DNA from: a virus
DNA: 32,862 nucleotides
Reading direction: 5' to 3' (one strand)
Virus record (IMG/VR): IMGVR_UViG_3300027759_000028
Coordinates: 1 to 32,862 of that record
Position numbers and translations under genes: made by a program. Below the pieces are notes generated by a model. It searched no databases, was not told the DNA's origin, and saw nothing but the letters and a program-made list of their open reading frames with translations. This document shows, in pieces, positions 1-32,862 of the stretch. Positions within the stretch are counted from its first letter, which is position 1, and every line of letters starts with the position of its first letter.

Positions 1-235
1 TGCCAAGCAAATGAAAGGCGCTGGCAGTGCATGGTCATCAGACGATTGGAAAAGGCTTTTAATTGACCAATGGGCGCATGAGACAGGGCGTAAGGTGGGC
101 AAGGTCGCCCCAAGCCTAGACGGGGAACGGGTTGTTCAATTAGGACTGCAAAGCCACAAGTTCACCAAAGAAGAAGGCTCAGAGTTCATTGAATGGCTCT
201 TGGCATGGATGGCAGAAAAAGGAATAGAAACATGA
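1..235 (+). CDS. ninB: NinB-like recombination protein, C-terminal part (5' end at the other window end)
   Basis: This is the C-terminal 77 residues of a NinB-like protein. The open frame has no start here, because the gene begins at 32569 and crosses the circular join; base 1 is the last base of a Val codon. Joined, the protein is 133 residues, close to lambda NinB (about 146). NinB (Orf) belongs to the lambda nin region, binds single-stranded DNA and stands in for host RecFOR functions in phage recombination. The stop overlaps the next start (TGA at 233-235, ATG at 232), so translation is probably coupled to the zinc-ribbon gene. RusA lies just upstream, which matches the lambdoid nin region. 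The family call rests on overall sequence resemblance and context; no catalytic motif is expected. Confidence 0.85.
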   Translation, partial: AKQMKGAGSAWSSDDWKRLLIDQWAHETGRKVGKVAPSLDGERVVQLGLQSHKFTKEEGSEFIEWLLAWMAEKGIET

Positions 236-3336: not shown

Positions 3337-4607
3337 GCGATGTAACCGATGCCATTGCCAAGGCAGAGTTTCCCGTCAAGTTGGAAGGTCTGTTCAAAAA
3401 GAGCCGTTACAAGGTTCTTTATGGCGGAAGGGGTGGGGCTAAGAGTTGGGGAATTGCAAGGGCGTTACTGATCAAAGGCGCAAAAGACCCAATCCGCATC
3501 CTCTGCGCCCGTGAGTTTCAGACATCCATCAAGGATTCGGTTCATAAGTTACTGTGCGACCAGATCGAGAGCCTTGGCCTCTTGTCGTTCTACGAGATCA
3601 CCCAAACAAGCATCAGGGGCAGAAACGGCACAGAGTTTAGCTTTGTTGGCCTGAAGAACAATGTTTCAAATATCAAGTCTTATGAAGGTGTTGACATTTG
3701 TTGGGTTGAGGAAGCGCAGACCACCAGCCGCCTATCGTGGAACATCTTAATTCCGACCATCCGAAAGGAAGGGTCTGAGATATGGATCAGCTTCAATCCT
3801 GAGTTGGAGACAGACGAGACTTACCAAAGGTTTGTGGCAAATCCACCCGCAGACAGTATCACCATGAAGGTGAATTGGTACGACAACCCTTGGTTTCCTG
3901 ACACCCTTAAACTTGAAAAAGATGCTCTCAAACAAAGGGATGAGGAAGCCTACAACCAAGTTTGGGAAGGTCTATGCCGACAAACTGTGGATGGGGCTAT
4001 CTTTGCCAAAGAGATGCAACAAGCCGAGAAGGATGGGCGAATCTGCCGTGTTCCTTATGACGCTACAAAGCCAGTCCATGCGGTCTTTGACTTGGGATGG
4101 TCAGACAGCACAGCCATTTGGTTCTTGCAGTTTGTGGGCATGGAAACCAGGCTAATCCGCTACATTGAGGACAGCCAAAAGACCATTTCGTATTACCTGG
4201 CAACGATGCAAACTTATGGTTATGTGTACGACACCATCTGGCTTCCCCATGACGCAGAGAACAAGACCTTGGCGGCAGCGGGTCGGTCAATTGATGACAT
4301 TGTGAGAGCCGCAGGGTACAAGACTCAGATCATGCCAAGAGTGCCGATCCTAGACTCAATCAATGCGGCAAGGACAATCTTTCCGAATTGCTACTTTGAC
4401 AGGGAACACACGGCAGATGGTTTGGCTTGTCTCAGGCACTATCGATATGAGGTTGACCCCGATACAGGGCAGTTCAGCCGCAATCCCTTGCATGATCACT
4501 ACTCACACGGGGCTGACGCTTTCCGATATATTGCACTTATGATTAAAGAGCCGCCTAAACGCAAAAAGTCAGCGCAGATTGCAATGGCAAGCGGATGGAT
4601 GGGATAA
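3333..4607 (+). CDS. terL: terminase large subunit (PBSX/Terminase_3 type)
   Basis: This 424-residue protein has the ATPase Walker A motif GGRGGAKS at residues 31-38 and a Walker B region at 120-127 (VDICWVEE) with the catalytic Glu. The RNase-H-like nuclease domain follows, with acidic residues D253 (VFDLGW), D307 (LPHDAEN) and D395 (SHGADAFRY). It uses ATP to pump DNA into the prohead and cuts the concatemer. Length and motif order match the PBSX-type large terminases. It follows the small packaging gene with a four-base overlap and precedes the portal. P22-like virions normally package by headful, which fits the circular map seen here. Confidence 0.95.
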   Translation: MSDVTDAIAKAEFPVKLEGLFKKSRYKVLYGGRGGAKSWGIARALLIKGAKDPIRILCAREFQTSIKDSVHKLLCDQIESLGLLSFYEITQTSIRGRNGTEFSFVGLKNNVSNIKSYEGVDICWVEEAQTTSRLSWNILIPTIRKEGSEIWISFNPELETDETYQRFVANPPADSITMKVNWYDNPWFPDTLKLEKDALKQRDEEAYNQVWEGLCRQTVDGAIFAKEMQQAEKDGRICRVPYDATKPVHAVFDLGWSDSTAIWFLQFVGMETRLIRYIEDSQKTISYYLATMQTYGYVYDTIWLPHDAENKTLAAAGRSIDDIVRAAGYKTQIMPRVPILDSINAARTIFPNCYFDREHTADGLACLRHYRYEVDPDTGQFSRNPLHDHYSHGADAFRYIALMIKEPPKRKKSAQIAMASGWMG

Positions 4608-9848: not shown

Positions 9849-11908
9849 TGTCTAACAGCGCGGCTGTCACTCAGACAACCAACATTGTCCCTGTTCAGGG
9901 CGTTTTTGCCCCTGAGCCTACCTTTGCCCTCCAATACTTTGTTGGGCCAGCGGGAACGCCTTTCTATGGCCCTGCAAACGCCACCTTTACAAGCATTACG
10001 ACTGTAACTGGCACGATCACCACAACCCCATCTGCTGATACTGACATTGCCAACAAGGGATATGTGGATTCGGTTGCCCAAGGTCTTGATGTCAAAGCAT
10101 CGTGCGTTTATTCGACAACGGCAAACATTACCTTGTCGGGTCTTGGCACTCAAGGCGGTGGTGATTGGGCATCAAGTCTAAGTGAGGGTGATCGGGTTTT
10201 GGTCAAGAATCAGTCAAGCAGCCAATTCAACGGCATCTATGTGGCCTCTGCGACTGCTTGGTCACGATCAGCCGACATGAATGTTTGGGCTGAAGTCCCA
10301 TCAGCGTTTACATTTATTGAATCAGGGACAACCCTAGCTGATACGGGATGGGTTTGCACTGCCAATCAGGGCGGCACAATTGATGTGACTCCGATCACTT
10401 GGTCACAGTTTTCGGGTGCGGGTTCTTATTTAGCGGGAACAGGGTTAACCCTTACAGGCAACACTTTCAGCATCACCAACACAGGCGTTACAGCCGCTGC
10501 TTATGGTTCTGCTTCTCAAGTTGGGACTTTTACTGTCAATGCACAAGGCCAATTAACTTTGGCGGGTAGCACAAACATTGCAATTGCCGCCACTCAAATC
10601 ACTAGCGGCACGATTGACACTGCCCGTATATCAGGATCATATACAGGCATCACAGGCGTTGGGACACTCACCAATCTGAGTGTGACCAACACGATCACAG
10701 GATCAATTTCAGGTAATGCGGCAACTGCAACATCTGCAACAAATCTTGCAAATGGAACTGTTGGTGCAATTCCTTATCAAACTGGCTCTAGCGCAACCGC
10801 ATTTTTGAGTGCTGGCACAAACGGACAAGTGTTGACCTTGGCATCGGGTATTCCCTCATGGGCAACTCCGACCACAGGAACTGTGACTTCTGTTGCCCAA
10901 ACCTTTACGGGTGGCATCATTTCTGTTGGCGGCTCACCCATCACAACTTCAGGCACATTGGCTCTGACTGTGGCGGGAACTAGCGGTGGTATTCCTTACT
11001 TCACAAGCGCATCGGCATGGGCATCTTCTGCGGCTTTGGCGGCAAATGCTTTGATGGTTGGTGGCGGTGCGGGATTAGCCCCTAGCACGATTACAACAGG
11101 CACAGGGGTAGTGACAGCCTTGGGCGTGAATACAGGCTCTAGCGGGGCTTTTGTGGTCAATGGTGGGGCTTTGGGTACACCATCAAGCGGAACAGTTACC
11201 AATCTGACAGGAACTGCCTCAATCAACATCAACGGCACTGTTGGCGCAACCACTCCGACAACAGGAAAGTTCACCACAATTGATTTCAGCAGCACTTTGG
11301 CGGTATCAGGTGCAACGGGTTCTGCGGGTCAAGTTCTAACTTCTAATGGCTCAAGCGCACCGACTTGGACAACCCCGACCGCCTATGCGACTGTGACCGA
11401 TGACACCACCACAAATGCGGTGCGTTATCCACTGTTTGCAAATCAGACCACAGGCAACCTGACAACCGAATATGTGAGTTCTACCAAGCTGAACTACAAC
11501 CCAAGTTCAGGATTGCTCACAGCAACGGGCTTTAGCGGCTCTGGTGCGAGTTTGACAAGCCTCCCTGCGGGTCAACTATCAGGAACGATTCCAAGCGGTG
11601 TATTGGGCAATTCAAACCTTTATGTTGGCACGACTTCCATTGCTTTGAATCGGTCAAGTAGCGCACAGTCTTTAACAGGCGTGAACATTGATGGGTCAGC
11701 GGGTTCTGCAACGACTGCGGGAACGGCAACAAATGCCACAAATGTGGCAATTACTGATGATACGACCACAGCCTCAGATATGTATATTTCTTGGGTTACT
11801 GCTAGTACAGGAAATTTGCCTAACAAGGTATCATCGACTAAACTCAAATTTAATCCATCCACAGGCGTTTTGACCGCAACTGGTGGCGTTCTTGGAGGCA
11901 CATTCTGA
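9848..11908 (+). CDS. tail fibre protein with repeated shaft
   Basis: This 686-residue protein has an N-terminal part containing ADTDIANKGYVDSVAQGLDVK and a GDRVLVKNQSSSQFNGIY module, both common in fibres. A long Gly/Ser/Thr-rich shaft follows with many GTVTSV-, GGIPYFTS- and ATTPTTGKFT-type elements. The last quarter has two copies of a roughly 47-residue unit. No enzyme domain is visible. It probably forms trimers that bind the host surface. The C-terminus Gly-Gly-Thr-Phe is encoded by the GGAGG ribosome site of the next gene. Starts inside the previous stop codon. Confidence 0.85.
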   Translation: MSNSAAVTQTTNIVPVQGVFAPEPTFALQYFVGPAGTPFYGPANATFTSITTVTGTITTTPSADTDIANKGYVDSVAQGLDVKASCVYSTTANITLSGLGTQGGGDWASSLSEGDRVLVKNQSSSQFNGIYVASATAWSRSADMNVWAEVPSAFTFIESGTTLADTGWVCTANQGGTIDVTPITWSQFSGAGSYLAGTGLTLTGNTFSITNTGVTAAAYGSASQVGTFTVNAQGQLTLAGSTNIAIAATQITSGTIDTARISGSYTGITGVGTLTNLSVTNTITGSISGNAATATSATNLANGTVGAIPYQTGSSATAFLSAGTNGQVLTLASGIPSWATPTTGTVTSVAQTFTGGIISVGGSPITTSGTLALTVAGTSGGIPYFTSASAWASSAALAANALMVGGGAGLAPSTITTGTGVVTALGVNTGSSGAFVVNGGALGTPSSGTVTNLTGTASININGTVGATTPTTGKFTTIDFSSTLAVSGATGSAGQVLTSNGSSAPTWTTPTAYATVTDDTTTNAVRYPLFANQTTGNLTTEYVSSTKLNYNPSSGLLTATGFSGSGASLTSLPAGQLSGTIPSGVLGNSNLYVGTTSIALNRSSSAQSLTGVNIDGSAGSATTAGTATNATNVAITDDTTTASDMYISWVTASTGNLPNKVSSTKLKFNPSTGVLTATGGVLGGTF
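11390..11884 (+). repeat. two diverged shaft repeats in the tail fibre
   Basis: Residues 515-562 (11390-11533) and 634-679 (11747-11884) of the fibre share the pattern T-D-D-T-T-T, then T-x-G-N-L, then VSSTKL-x-(Y/F)-NPS-(S/T)-G-(L/V)-LTATG. Between them lies a 71-residue spacer. The copies are clear at protein level and diverged in DNA, so the duplication is not recent. Confidence 0.75.
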
Positions 11909-28381: not shown

Positions 28382-28570
28382 ATGACTACAAACCAACAAC
28401 TTCAATCTGACAAAGATTTAATTGCCAAACATGGTGGCCCATCTGCGCTTGCAAAAAAACTAGGTTTTGCCTCTAAGCAGAGGGTTCACAACTGGATGAC
28501 AAGAGGCATCCCGCCAGCAATCAAATTGGCTTACCCTAAACTGTTTTTAAGAAATGTTGTAAAAAAATGA
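28382..28570 (+). CDS. Cro-like helix-turn-helix regulator
   Basis: This 62-residue protein has a compact HTH: GGPSALAKKLGFASKQRVHN (helix, turn and recognition helix, about residues 18-37) followed by WMTRGIPPAIKLAYPKLF, as in YdaS/Cro-type phage regulators that recognise short palindromes. It begins the rightward early operon and lies beside the divergent promoters, so it probably represses one or both. No CI partner is encoded. The mRNA is predicted to be leaderless. Confidence 0.75.
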   Translation: MTTNQQLQSDKDLIAKHGGPSALAKKLGFASKQRVHNWMTRGIPPAIKLAYPKLFLRNVVKK

Positions 28571-28899
28571 CACCAACTTGCCGTTTATGCAATAAAGAAA
28601 TAATTGGTCGGTATCACAGCGCAAAGCATTGCTGGGTATGTACAGATTCACATGGGATTGTTAATGGTGCTAGAAAAGCAATTTCAGAAGTAGCAAAAGC
28701 AGTAAGAAAAGGAATTCTTCCATCAGTAAAAACTTTGACTTGCGTTGATTGTGGAAGACCTGGTGAGTGCTATGACCATAGAGATTACAACAAGCCTTTG
28801 GATGTTGTTCCTGTATGCCGTAAATGCAACTTTCGCAGGGGTTCAGCTATTCCTGTAAAAAAAGATGTTGCTTCAGAAATGAATGTTGGGTTAAGATAA
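28567..28899 (+). CDS. zinc-binding HNH-like protein
   Basis: This 110-residue protein has three Cys pairs: CRLC and CWVC near the start, and CVDC (59-62) with CRKC (83-86), the latter two flanking DHRDYNKPLDVVPV. This last part resembles an HNH/zinc-finger core with the DHRDYNKPL motif seen in many small phage proteins. It overlaps the HTH stop (ATGA). The task may be DNA binding or nicking; a catalytic His/Asn pair cannot be assigned with certainty. Confidence 0.65.
   Translation: MTPTCRLCNKEIIGRYHSAKHCWVCTDSHGIVNGARKAISEVAKAVRKGILPSVKTLTCVDCGRPGECYDHRDYNKPLDVVPVCRKCNFRRGSAIPVKKDVASEMNVGLR
28868..28897 (+). promoter_or_regulatory. weak candidate promoter for the folded RNA
   Basis: TTGCTT (28868-28873) and TAAGAT (28892-28897) are 18 bases apart at the end of the zinc-protein gene; the -10 hexamer is identical to that of the HTH promoter. 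RNA would start near 28904, just before the folded element. The match is modest. Confidence 0.25.
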
Positions 28900-28922
28900 A
28901 TGGAACACTTGGCGGTGTTAAT

Positions 28923-29011
28923 GTAGTAGGGTTACACATGAAGTCTGCTGGTTACTACGCCAGTCCGCCAACATCCGCAAGGGTGAGACTTCAGGTGTAG
29001 CCCTTTTTTTT
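28923..29011 (+). ncRNA. three-way-junction RNA ending in a U run, upstream of replication genes
   Basis: The basal helix P1 pairs 28929-28946 with 28986-29003 (18 positions: 16 Watson-Crick pairs, one G/T, one A/G mismatch). Inside, P2 is GCTGG (28947-28951) with CCAGT (28960-28964), and P3 is CATCC (28972-28976) with GGGTG (28981-28985), closed by a GCAA tetraloop. The P2 loop has TACTAC (28953-28958), which can pair with GTAGTA (28923-28928) just before P1. Eight T follow P1 directly. It may be a small RNA or a regulatory leader. No known family is recognised. Confidence 0.6.
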
Positions 29012-29020
29012 GGGCTTTTT
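28999..29020 (+). terminator. alternative terminator hairpin before the O-like gene
   Basis: AGCCC (28999-29003) can pair with GGGCT (29012-29016) across a loop of eight T, followed by TTTT to 29020. The left arm is also the outer end of the P1 helix, so the two structures exclude each other. The replication gene starts at 29021 without a ribosome site. Confidence 0.45.
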
Positions 29021-29680
29021 ATGAGAATTAAAAACTGGACAAAGTTTCAGCATTTCAAGGACAGGCGGCCTCCTTGGGTAAAGCTGTATCGTGACATTCT
29101 TGATGACCTTGAATGGCATGAATTAGACCCGTTGGCTGCCAAAGTGTTGGTCATGCTCTGGTTGATTGCCAGTGAGAATGATGGGTGCATCCCTGACAAC
29201 AAAACACTTGCTTTTCGTCTTAGATTGACGGAAATTAAAACTAAAGAAATCGTTTCCAAGCTGTCTCACTGGTTGGAACAAGATGATATTAATGTGATAT
29301 CAAGTGGATATCAACTTGATAGTACAGAGACAGAGACAGAGACAGAGGTAGAGAAAGAGAAAGAGAAAGAGACAAAGGCAAAAGCGCCTGAAGGCGTTTC
29401 ACCAGAAGTCTGGGATTCTTTTGTTAAACAAAGAAAAGCAAGCAGGGCAGTCATTACGACCACTGTTATCAAATCAATTCAAAAAGAAGCTGACAAAGCG
29501 GGTTGGACACTTGAACAAGCATTGGCTGAATGTGCCGCCCGTGGGTGGCGTGGATTTAAAGCCGATTGGGTTGCAGACAAAAACTTAACCAAAACTGGTC
29601 AACGAAATGCTGCTGTTTTGTCGGGGCTAACCCGTGGCTTACTTGGAGGACAGAGCAATGTCAAATTACTTGGAAACTGA
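29021..29680 (+). CDS. O-like replication initiation protein
   Basis: This 219-residue protein has an N-terminal winged-helix-like region (FQHFKDRRPPWVKLYRDILD, AAKVLVMLWLIASENDGCIP and the helices around residues 67-85), a highly charged linker of Thr/Glu then Lys/Glu pairs (about 101-118), and a C-terminal domain (SPEVWDSFVKQRKASRAVIT ... CAARGWRGFKADWV). This plan and its place before a P-like gene match replisome organisers such as lambda O. The linker DNA is a hexamer array that may be the origin. There is no ribosome site; a U-rich terminator-like hairpin abuts the ATG. The end overlaps the next gene by 23 bases. Confidence 0.75.
   Translation: MRIKNWTKFQHFKDRRPPWVKLYRDILDDLEWHELDPLAAKVLVMLWLIASENDGCIPDNKTLAFRLRLTEIKTKEIVSKLSHWLEQDDINVISSGYQLDSTETETETEVEKEKEKETKAKAPEGVSPEVWDSFVKQRKASRAVITTTVIKSIQKEADKAGWTLEQALAECAARGWRGFKADWVADKNLTKTGQRNAAVLSGLTRGLLGGQSNVKLLGN
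29298..29377 (+). repeat. hexamer array and inverted repeat: candidate replication origin
   Basis: A perfect inverted repeat, TATCAAGT (29298-29305) and ACTTGATA (29314-29321), is followed by nine hexamers from 29324 to 29377: four ACAGAG, GTAGAG, three AAAGAG and ACAAAG. The strand is almost purely purine. It lies in the linker of the O-like gene, the place where lambda has its origin iterons and purine/pyrimidine-skewed element. Confidence 0.45.
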
Positions 29681-32156: not shown

Positions 32157-32572
32157 TGCAAATCACATTTGCGGTGTATGGCGAACCTGTACCAAAGGGC
32201 AGACCGAGGTTTTCCAGAAGGGGAAAATTTCCCGTTGCCTACACCCCTGAAAAGACAAAGAACTACGAATCCGAGGTGGCGATGATGGCAAAGGCGGCAA
32301 TGGGCGCAACAGAGCCGCTAGAAGGGGCATTGGAGGCGTTTATTTATGTCACCTTTCCTGTTCCCGCCTCATACTCAAAAAAACGCACTGAGGCTTGTTT
32401 AAGCGATTCTGAGAAACACACAAAACGCCCCGATTTGGATAACGTAATCAAGTCTGTGATTGATGGCATGGACAAAATCGTGTTTTTAAACGACTCGCAG
32501 ATCACATCCATCCACAGCACCAAGGTTTATGGTGAGGTTGGCAAGGTTGAAGTTTTAGTGAGGGAAGCATGA
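32153..32572 (+). CDS. rusA: RusA-like Holliday junction resolvase
   Basis: This 139-residue protein has the RusA pattern: an early AVYGEPVPKGRPRF, then KRPDLDNVIKSVIDGMDKIVF with the acidic pair D94 and D96 and K100, and NDSQI with D114. In E. coli RusA three Asp (70, 72 and 91) bind the metal that cuts four-way junctions. It resolves recombination intermediates and branched replication DNA before packaging. Overlaps with both neighbours (ATGA type) place it in the nin-type operon. Confidence 0.92.
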   Translation: MMQITFAVYGEPVPKGRPRFSRRGKFPVAYTPEKTKNYESEVAMMAKAAMGATEPLEGALEAFIYVTFPVPASYSKKRTEACLSDSEKHTKRPDLDNVIKSVIDGMDKIVFLNDSQITSIHSTKVYGEVGKVEVLVREA

Positions 32573-32862
32573 TCATCACACTACACAACAGCCAACAGGC
32601 GCACACAGTCCTGAAAGACCTATGGCCGAAGATTAAACAAACCTTACAAGCGGGTAAGCAGTTGCGTTTGGAAGTCAAGAAATGCACCCGAAGCACAGAC
32701 CAGAACGCCATGTTTCACAGCCTGATTGACATCGTTGCCAAGCAAATGAAAGGCGCTGGCAGTGCATGGTCATCAGACGATTGGAAAAGGCTTTTAATTG
32801 ACCAATGGGCGCATGAGACAGGGCGTAAGGTGGGCAAGGTCGCCCCAAGCCTAGACGGGGAA
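32569..32862 (+). CDS. ninB: NinB-like recombination protein, N-terminal part (continues at window start)
   Basis: The gene starts at ATG 32569, which overlaps the RusA stop, and runs off the window end. The first residues are IITLHNSQQAHTVLKDLW, and the family segment TRSTDQNAMFHSLIDIVAKQ follows. The last 127 bases repeat window bases 1-127, so the complete 133-residue reading is 32569-32735 joined to 1-235. The TDQNxxFH segment is typical of lambda NinB. Confidence 0.88.
   Translation, partial: MIITLHNSQQAHTVLKDLWPKIKQTLQAGKQLRLEVKKCTRSTDQNAMFHSLIDIVAKQMKGAGSAWSSDDWKRLLIDQWAHETGRKVGKVAPSLDGE
32736..32862 (+). repeat. 127-bp exact copy of the window start
   Basis: Bases 32736-32862 are identical to 1-127. 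The copy lies within the coding part of ninB and keeps its frame. It marks a circular map of 32,735 bp. The length suits an assembly overlap of 127 bases better than a physical terminal repeat. Confidence 0.95.

Follow-up and report, generated by a model that had tools for sequence, protein, structure and literature searches.

Genetic organization of the locus

The window, by which we mean the whole 32,862-nucleotide stretch of viral DNA analyzed here (IMG/VR record IMGVR_UViG_3300027759_000028), contains an RNA element of ~108 bases at about 28904 to 29011 on the plus strand, in an intergenic region of this freshwater phage. The upstream gene encodes a small HNH-like zinc protein, and its end overlaps the putative promoter of the RNA; the downstream gene encodes an O-like replication initiator (Table 1). 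A preliminary description, made from the letters of the window, had the element begin at 28923 and overlooked both the P0 hairpin, with which it actually starts at 28904, and the putative promoter. The positions that it gave are all correct, and P1, P2, P3, the pseudoknot PK2, the junction strand, and the eight U's were found in the sequence accordingly.

Table 1. Features of the RNA element and its flanks (positions in the window)
Feature	Position	Strand	Basis or remark
Upstream gene, small HNH-like zinc protein	28567-28899	+	phrog_2340 endonuclease, 8.7e-06
−35-like TTGCTT, 18-nt spacer	28868-28873	+	TTGCNN/TATRAT-type pairs, 15- to 19-nt spacing
−10-like TAAGAT	28892-28897	+	Predicted transcription start ~28903-28905, first P0 base
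P0 hairpin AACAC-TTGGCG-GTGTT, 5 bp	28904-28919	+	Sequence; counted pairs 100% formed, 2/3 compensated
PK1 5' strand (P0 loop TTGGCG)	28909-28914	+	6 pairs 100% formed, 3/6 compensated; four complementary allele pairs
PK2 5' strand GTAGTA (J0/1)	28923-28928	+	5/5 counted pairs covary, 98.6% formed
P1 5' strand, mismatched A28938 mid-strand	28929-28946	+	Alignment
P2 hairpin GCTGG-TTACTACG-CCAGT	28947-28964	+	Helix 28947-28951 with 28960-28964; alignment
PK2 3' strand (P2 loop TACTAC)	28953-28958	+	Alignment
J2/3 CCGCCAA	28965-28971	+	28966-28971 (CGCCAA) is the PK1 3' strand; alignment
P3 hairpin, GCAA loop	28972-28985	+	Helix 28972-28976 with 28981-28985; alignment
P1 3' strand	28986-29003	+	Alignment
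U8 tract, intrinsic terminator and predicted RNA 3' end	29004-29011	+	Sequence
Alternative hairpin AGCCC-U8-GGGCT	28999-29016	+	Exclusive with the P1 base; covers the likely Shine-Dalgarno sequence of the next gene
Downstream gene, O-like replication initiator	29021-29680	+	phrog_678 replication initiation O-like, 4.4e-20

The minimum free energy of the element is −41.2 kcal/mol, compared to −26.6 ± 3.1 kcal/mol in dinucleotide shuffles (z = −4.8; 0/200 as stable), and the corresponding fold is a three-way junction, in agreement with the preliminary description. When the whole window was scanned with the covariance model (CM) and the filters were disabled, one copy was returned, at 102 bits, and the rest was noise. 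The basal helix P1, described as spanning 18 positions, consists of 17 pairs and one A28938·G28994 mismatch; in the family, it has 17 to 18 positions and a central mismatch, which is A·G or A·C in many members. Eight U's directly after this helix had also been noticed correctly, and a GC-rich stem directly before a U-run, the arrangement by which intrinsic terminators are recognized, was found in the window and in family members alike. Judged by sequence, P1 and U8 are an intrinsic terminator. CCGCCAA is indeed a long junction strand, as had been described, but rather than being free it forms a second pseudoknot, PK1, with the P0 loop.

Two other observations were made in the window. Halfway through the O-like gene (29328 to 29372), purine-rich short repeats (ACAGAG/AAAGAG) are reminiscent of lambda-type origin iterons. 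Moreover, the first open reading frame (ORF) of the window (1 to 235) repeats the protein sequence of 32569 to 32862 (KQMKGAGSAWSSDDWKRLLIDQWAHETGRKVGKVAPSLDGE); thus, the contig is probably circular or terminally redundant.

Distribution of the RNA in phages

By blastn, an 86.6% homolog was found in two Manatee Spring phage records, and among named phages only MW202462 and MW202544 match. The O-like N-terminal domain was used as a protein query, a sampling that does not depend on the presence of the RNA, and yielded 80 IMG/VR loci; the RNA was present at 51 of 80 IMG/VR plus four named-phage O-like loci (CM bits of 61.7 to 112.6), and a 52nd match in the same locus set, with 14.4 bits, is due to chance. 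The RNA is not obligatory for O-like genes, since some of these occur without it. An exact-core DNA pattern retrieved 69 stretches from IMG/VR, a handful of which are chance coding matches, a looser core retrieved at least 120, and further pattern scans led to divergent classes. In total, the family has more than 100 distinct members.

Among ~980 bacterial genomes, good matches were obtained in G001 (Polynucleobacter, locus L323), G002 (a Betaproteobacteria metagenome-assembled genome [MAG]), and G060, and most pattern matches in the genome collection were chance coding matches. In L323, the genes read from the sequence beside the RNA encode a repressor-like protein, an O-like initiator, and a DnaC-like loader, and this locus therefore looks like a prophage. 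A host gene was rejected on the grounds that the few matches in these genomes are apparently prophages. A plasmid search gave no matches. Thus, as far as sequence searches go, the RNA is essentially phage specific. One record with two copies was found (G968, locus L388), and it was the only one; the copies lie at 1502 to 1608 (−) and 4346 to 4452 (+), with PK1 alleles TGGGGAG and TTGGTCG, respectively, and both apparently precede an HNH-type gene, the second gene being judged by similarity to sister loci.

No description of the RNA was found in the literature. Likewise, Rfam 15 contained no family, except tRNA, that reached its gathering score in the window or in eight loci of several classes, and around the element nothing was found at E ≤ 10 apart from a few weak listings with E > 1, far below gathering scores. 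The preliminary description, which could match no known family, was right in this respect, and the comparisons indicate that the RNA is a new structured-RNA family, real and conserved.

Covariation supports every helix and both pseudoknots

Pair counts were taken from an alignment of 57 distinct and diverse members, in which 97.4% of cells are paired, compared to 36 to 44% in slid controls, and 31 of 40 pairs have changes on both sides. The covariation score was 0.645, versus 0.185 ± 0.008 in shuffles and 0.06 to 0.10 in slid registers. P1 is 94.6% formed (15/18 pairs compensated), P2 100% (4/5), and P3 99.4% (2/3). PK2, the pairing of the P2 loop with the flank before P1 that had been proposed from the window, covaries at every counted pair (Table 1). 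The region was conserved in these 57 relatives, and changes that break the helices without compensation did not occur. The residues UCUG and AGA and the basal G·U pair of P2 (57/57) are invariant in the alignment; part of the core was fixed, or a T-run required, in the patterns behind several of the collections, so the invariance of the canonical core is partly due to selection. As for the U-run, core patterns without the T-run requirement also yielded members that have it.

The P0 loop is complementary to J2/3 in 128 of 130 structurally detected copies. Four allele pairs were observed, TTGGCGG/CCGCCAA, TGGGGAG/CTCCCCA, TTGGAGG/CCTCCAA, and TTGGTCG/CGACCAA, and the canonical PK1 sequence is common to most of the family. 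The covariation of PK1 is free of selection, since the alternative alleles were found without fixing it: L051 was obtained via the protein, classes C and D via patterns that left P0 and J2/3 free, and L329 via the CM. Altogether, every helix, including PK1 and PK2, is supported by the family alignment. Furthermore, G·U cells far outnumber A·C cells (87 versus 5), which indicates that the conserved object is an RNA on the plus strand rather than a DNA hairpin. A DNA-level hairpin or origin was ruled out by these counts together with the strand-specific promoter and U-run.

Promoter, spacing, and neighboring genes

A TTGCNN/TATRAT-type (σ70-type) promoter sequence lies upstream of most of the 126 distinct copies; the most common −10 hexamers were TATGAT (28), TATAGT, TAAAAT, and TATAAT (16 each), and TAAGAT (11). 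In 97 of the 126, the first base of the P0 loop is 11 to 15 nt past the −10, which places the first base of P0 ~6 to 10 nt past it and the predicted start of transcription at or next to P0. Because the promoter was taken as the best match per sequence, some individual −35 assignments are wrong. The pattern is strong and argues that the RNA has its own promoter just before P0, a promoter that we regard as putative.

On the other side of the element, the next ORF could be called for 122 copies, and in 117 of them it starts 8 to 15 nt past the last T, whatever the gene family; an exception is the prophage copy L323, whose initiator starts 77 nt downstream. No promoter fits into such a gap, and the downstream gene would thus have to be transcribed through the terminator. 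The first genes encode 86 distinct proteins, of which 23 match Pfam HNH_3 and 11 match DUF1376; ParB-like, GIY-YIG, and small proteins are also present, and by PHROGs many first genes match primosomal or replication-initiation families. In 84 of 107 loci, the distance to a downstream gene for a replication-type protein is at most 925 nt, and at several of the remaining loci the next genes, as read from the sequences, are helicase- or primase-like or are HNH genes located elsewhere, including in the recombination operon. A family of ~60- to 70-amino-acid proteins (..I.ITQ....V.LT..QF..I..) recurs in many phages, encoded directly behind the RNA (L211, L214, L216, L224, L234, L243, L192, L209, and others). 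The preliminary description had placed the RNA at the gate of the replication operon; this holds insofar as the RNA precedes the O-like initiator, but several copies precede HNH genes, some of them in a recombination operon.

The number of HNH_3 proteins among the first genes raises the question of whether the RNA belongs to a mobile homing-endonuclease cassette, in which HNH genes would carry or target it and its place before initiators would be incidental. Class C and D copies precede HNH genes, also outside the replication operon, and the upstream gene in the window is itself HNH-like. Such a cassette is nonetheless improbable, as many copies are not directly followed by an HNH gene, and promoter, terminator, and spacing also stay together where the next gene is not of the HNH type.

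Hairpins at the ribosome-binding site and geometry of PK2

The likely Shine-Dalgarno sequence is covered by a hairpin, which the sequence past the U-run forms together with the U-run and the 3' end of P1. This ribosome-binding site (RBS) hairpin is GCCC-U8-GGGC in class A and GCUUUU..AAAAGC in class B; in classes C and D, it is a separate hairpin whose loop copies the P0 loop. Mean hairpin energies in classes A, B, and C were −5.9, −5.1, and −5.7 kcal/mol, compared to −2.0, −2.7, and −3.9 kcal/mol in shuffled-tail controls, 0/200 of which reached the observed value in each class. In within-class permutations, the class B pairing was sequence specific (0/300); the pairing of class A, which 52 of 300 permutations reached, and that of class C were not, and the hairpin signal of these two classes may therefore reflect shared ancestry.

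Of 23 distinct class C and D copies (two main alleles), 15 have the complete 7-nt P0 loop again at the RBS next to them, compared to 0 of 102 canonical copies of the same set; L120 is the one exception seen among class A and B RBSs. The repeated loop is often carried on a different stem, as in L337 (ATCGCTTGGAGGCGAT in P0 and GGCTTGGAGGCC at the RBS). In class C contigs, every TGGGGAG before a gene start is at the gene adjoining the RNA. By complementarity, J2/3 in classes C and D could pair with either the P0 loop or the RBS loop; a J2/3-RBS pairing is limited to these classes because class A and B RBSs do not copy the P0 loop. The RBS hairpins probably add a translational layer.

In a rigid A-form model, a single nucleotide is left to link PK2 to P1, and the two fit together as long as P1 has no more than ~15 to 16 bp; with 17 to 18 bp, the 1-nt linker must span 18 to 22 Å versus ~13 Å available. 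We hypothesize from this model, a crude rigid-body estimate in which bending at the P1 mismatch could relieve the strain, that PK2 excludes the last one to three pairs of P1. These pairs adjoin the U-run and are the most important for termination, and PK2 may consequently weaken the terminator.

Possible functions of the RNA

The preliminary description proposed a riboswitch, sRNA, or antitoxin-type RNA, which is too vague, as these are three different things. The best explanation, in which we have about even confidence, is a cis-acting phage attenuator or leader that also releases a stable sRNA. Transcription would start at P0 and usually stop at U8, freeing a stable RNA of ~108 nt, and the O-like initiator would be made only from transcripts reading through the terminator, which would carry the hairpins over the RBS. 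The main argument for this attenuator is that there is no room for a promoter between the U-run and the start codon. The RNA may in this way set a low, adjustable dose of DNA-cutting or replication-starting proteins, as a built-in brake, with the PK1/PK2 core as the likely regulated part; the free sRNA itself, a phage antiterminator, or a host protein could shift the balance.

The complete transcription unit, from putative promoter to terminator, would also suit a free-standing, trans-acting sRNA gene that lies beside the initiator owing to genome compactness and targets host or phage RNAs or proteins elsewhere. The strong conservation of the core, with its invariant UCUG, AGA, and G·U at P2, is in keeping with such a gene, and the near-absence of the RNA from the ~980 bacterial genomes would give it a phage-specific function. 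Nevertheless, a gene of this sort would not be expected to keep a near-constant 8 to 15 nt to the next ORF across unrelated genes or to leave essential genes past its terminator with no promoter room between. In addition, nearly all conserved loops are already paired in cis, and the P0-loop 7-mer is absent from other gene starts in class C contigs, with the matches in canonical contigs resembling coding background. We therefore consider a trans-acting gene unlikely. Candidate targets bearing the P0-loop 7-mer at other gene starts were rejected, none being convincing. In the window, TTGGCGG occurs 14 times versus 4.0 expected, mostly on the plus strand of late genes (for example, at 10559, 10926, 11036, 11297, and 12247); since two other heptamers with an identical composition occur more often, this excess reflects composition, probably codon usage.

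A ligand-sensing riboswitch, whose junction and PK1 core would bind a metabolite, is very improbable. Its supporters could point to the compact pseudoknotted junction with invariant residues, the leader position, and the 3' terminator. However, a terminator stem of 17 to 18 bp is unlike a ligand-gated P1 and should form without ligand, and the riboswitch architecture seen in the preliminary description is not supported; no antiterminator strand is conserved except PK2, the downstream genes have no common metabolic theme, and the RNA occurs almost exclusively in phages.

Returning to the attenuator, it is conceivable, if quite unlikely, that the terminated RNA is also a trans regulator. A free copy and the nascent leader would then exchange PK1/PK2 strands and thereby gate transcription of the initiator or homing endonuclease, and copies within one phage would be allele specific (orthogonal). 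If true, freshwater phages would possess, in such a strand-exchange attenuator, a device for replication control or immunity that is made of RNA only.

Comparison with known systems

Type III toxin-antitoxin RNAs (ToxI) are made up of tandem repeats that lie upstream of a gene for a ToxN-type toxin. The order of promoter, pseudoknotted RNA, terminator, and ORF is similar in the new RNA, which differs from ToxI in having no tandem repeats, a single copy per site, and no single toxin family downstream. A type III antitoxin RNA was rejected on the basis of this single copy and of the downstream genes, which encode initiators, HNH proteins, ParB-like proteins, and others; with no toxin-like partner gene, the antitoxin-type reading of the element was abandoned.

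The CI RNA of phage P4, with seqA upstream and seqC downstream, controls replication genes, and the single promoter of IsrK in Gifsy-1 yields two products, an sRNA that ends at a terminator and an mRNA that reads through into the neighboring phage gene (PMC4825925). Like P4 CI and the C4 RNA of P1 and P7, the new RNA is encoded on the same strand just upstream of the genes that it would control. The complementarity of an internal segment to both flanks is matched in part: J2/3 is complementary to the upstream P0 loop in nearly all copies, but a complete downstream counterpart at the RBS occurs in 15 of the 23 class C and D copies and in none of the 102 canonical ones. Unlike these RNAs, it has its own intrinsic terminator and two covarying pseudoknots; the C4 antisense RNA model gave no match at gathering level in the window or the eight loci. 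With IsrK, it would share the layout of terminated sRNA plus read-through mRNA and the placing of translation under RNA control, but the genes controlled are unrelated and the Rfam scan gave no sequence match.

By analogy with P4 CI and IsrK (PMC4825925), the freed RNA might act in trans on its own nascent leader through PK1/PK2 exchange, providing superinfection immunity or copy-number control. In addition to the common layout, the P0 loop would be seqA-like, J2/3 seqB-like, and the class C and D RBS loop seqC-like, and the two copies in G968 have different PK1 alleles, TGGGGAG and TTGGTCG. This autoregulation is rather unlikely: PK1 is canonical in most members and could not alone separate immunity groups, the two-copy record is the only one found, and C4 is not matched at the Rfam gathering level.

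The closest parallel in position is int-alpA (RF02996), typed by Rfam as an sRNA gene, which occupies the same preinitiator slot in related O-like/DUF1376 phages (L042, 36.0 bits; gathering score, 35.8), with below-gathering matches in the same slot of L046, L336, L347, and L368 (E values of 0.003 to 0.06). An int-alpA-like match was found in 13 of 34 phage records tested (two over the cutoff), and in several records it coexists with the new RNA; the window region gave no int-alpA match even at E ≤ 10. The int-alpA-like elements lie at 2900 to 2975 in L042, 2905 to 2979 in L046, and 1001 to 1072 in L336, and also in L347, L368, and similar O-like/DUF1376 loci. By eye, the loop of an inner hairpin in these elements is complementary to sequence just past the U-rich run (CCACCCC with GGGGTGG in L046, CACCTT with AAGGTG in L043, and CCACTT with AAGTGG in L335), and int-alpA-like elements may contain a covarying pseudoknot towards the RBS, one that may be absent from the Rfam model. 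Many O-like loci without the new RNA carry another structured element before the start codon, identified as int-alpA by Rfam in the loci named above. Immediately before the O-like start of L049 (position 3001) lies yet another kind of RNA-like element, which combines two strong hairpins with a U-run (GACGGTTTAGGTGTC..., CCCCTGAAGG...CTTTCAGGGG-T6); it had no Rfam match at gathering score.

In both int-alpA and the new RNA, an outer stem encloses two inner hairpins, a U-rich run at the 3' end precedes the next gene, and a TATAAT-like sequence lies upstream. Their conserved sequences differ (CUAG, CGAAAAGCG, and CGCCUG in int-alpA; CUUGGCGG, UCUG, CCGCCAAC, and GAGA in the new RNA), and the new RNA has, in addition, PK2 and the P0 hairpin that forms PK1. 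Hence, by these sequence features, the shared layout is resemblance and not membership. The new family, with its two pseudoknots and four PK1 alleles, adds to the few structured phage RNAs before replication genes, and the presence of two unrelated RNAs, this one and int-alpA, in the same slot points to a shared need for RNA gating of initiator expression.
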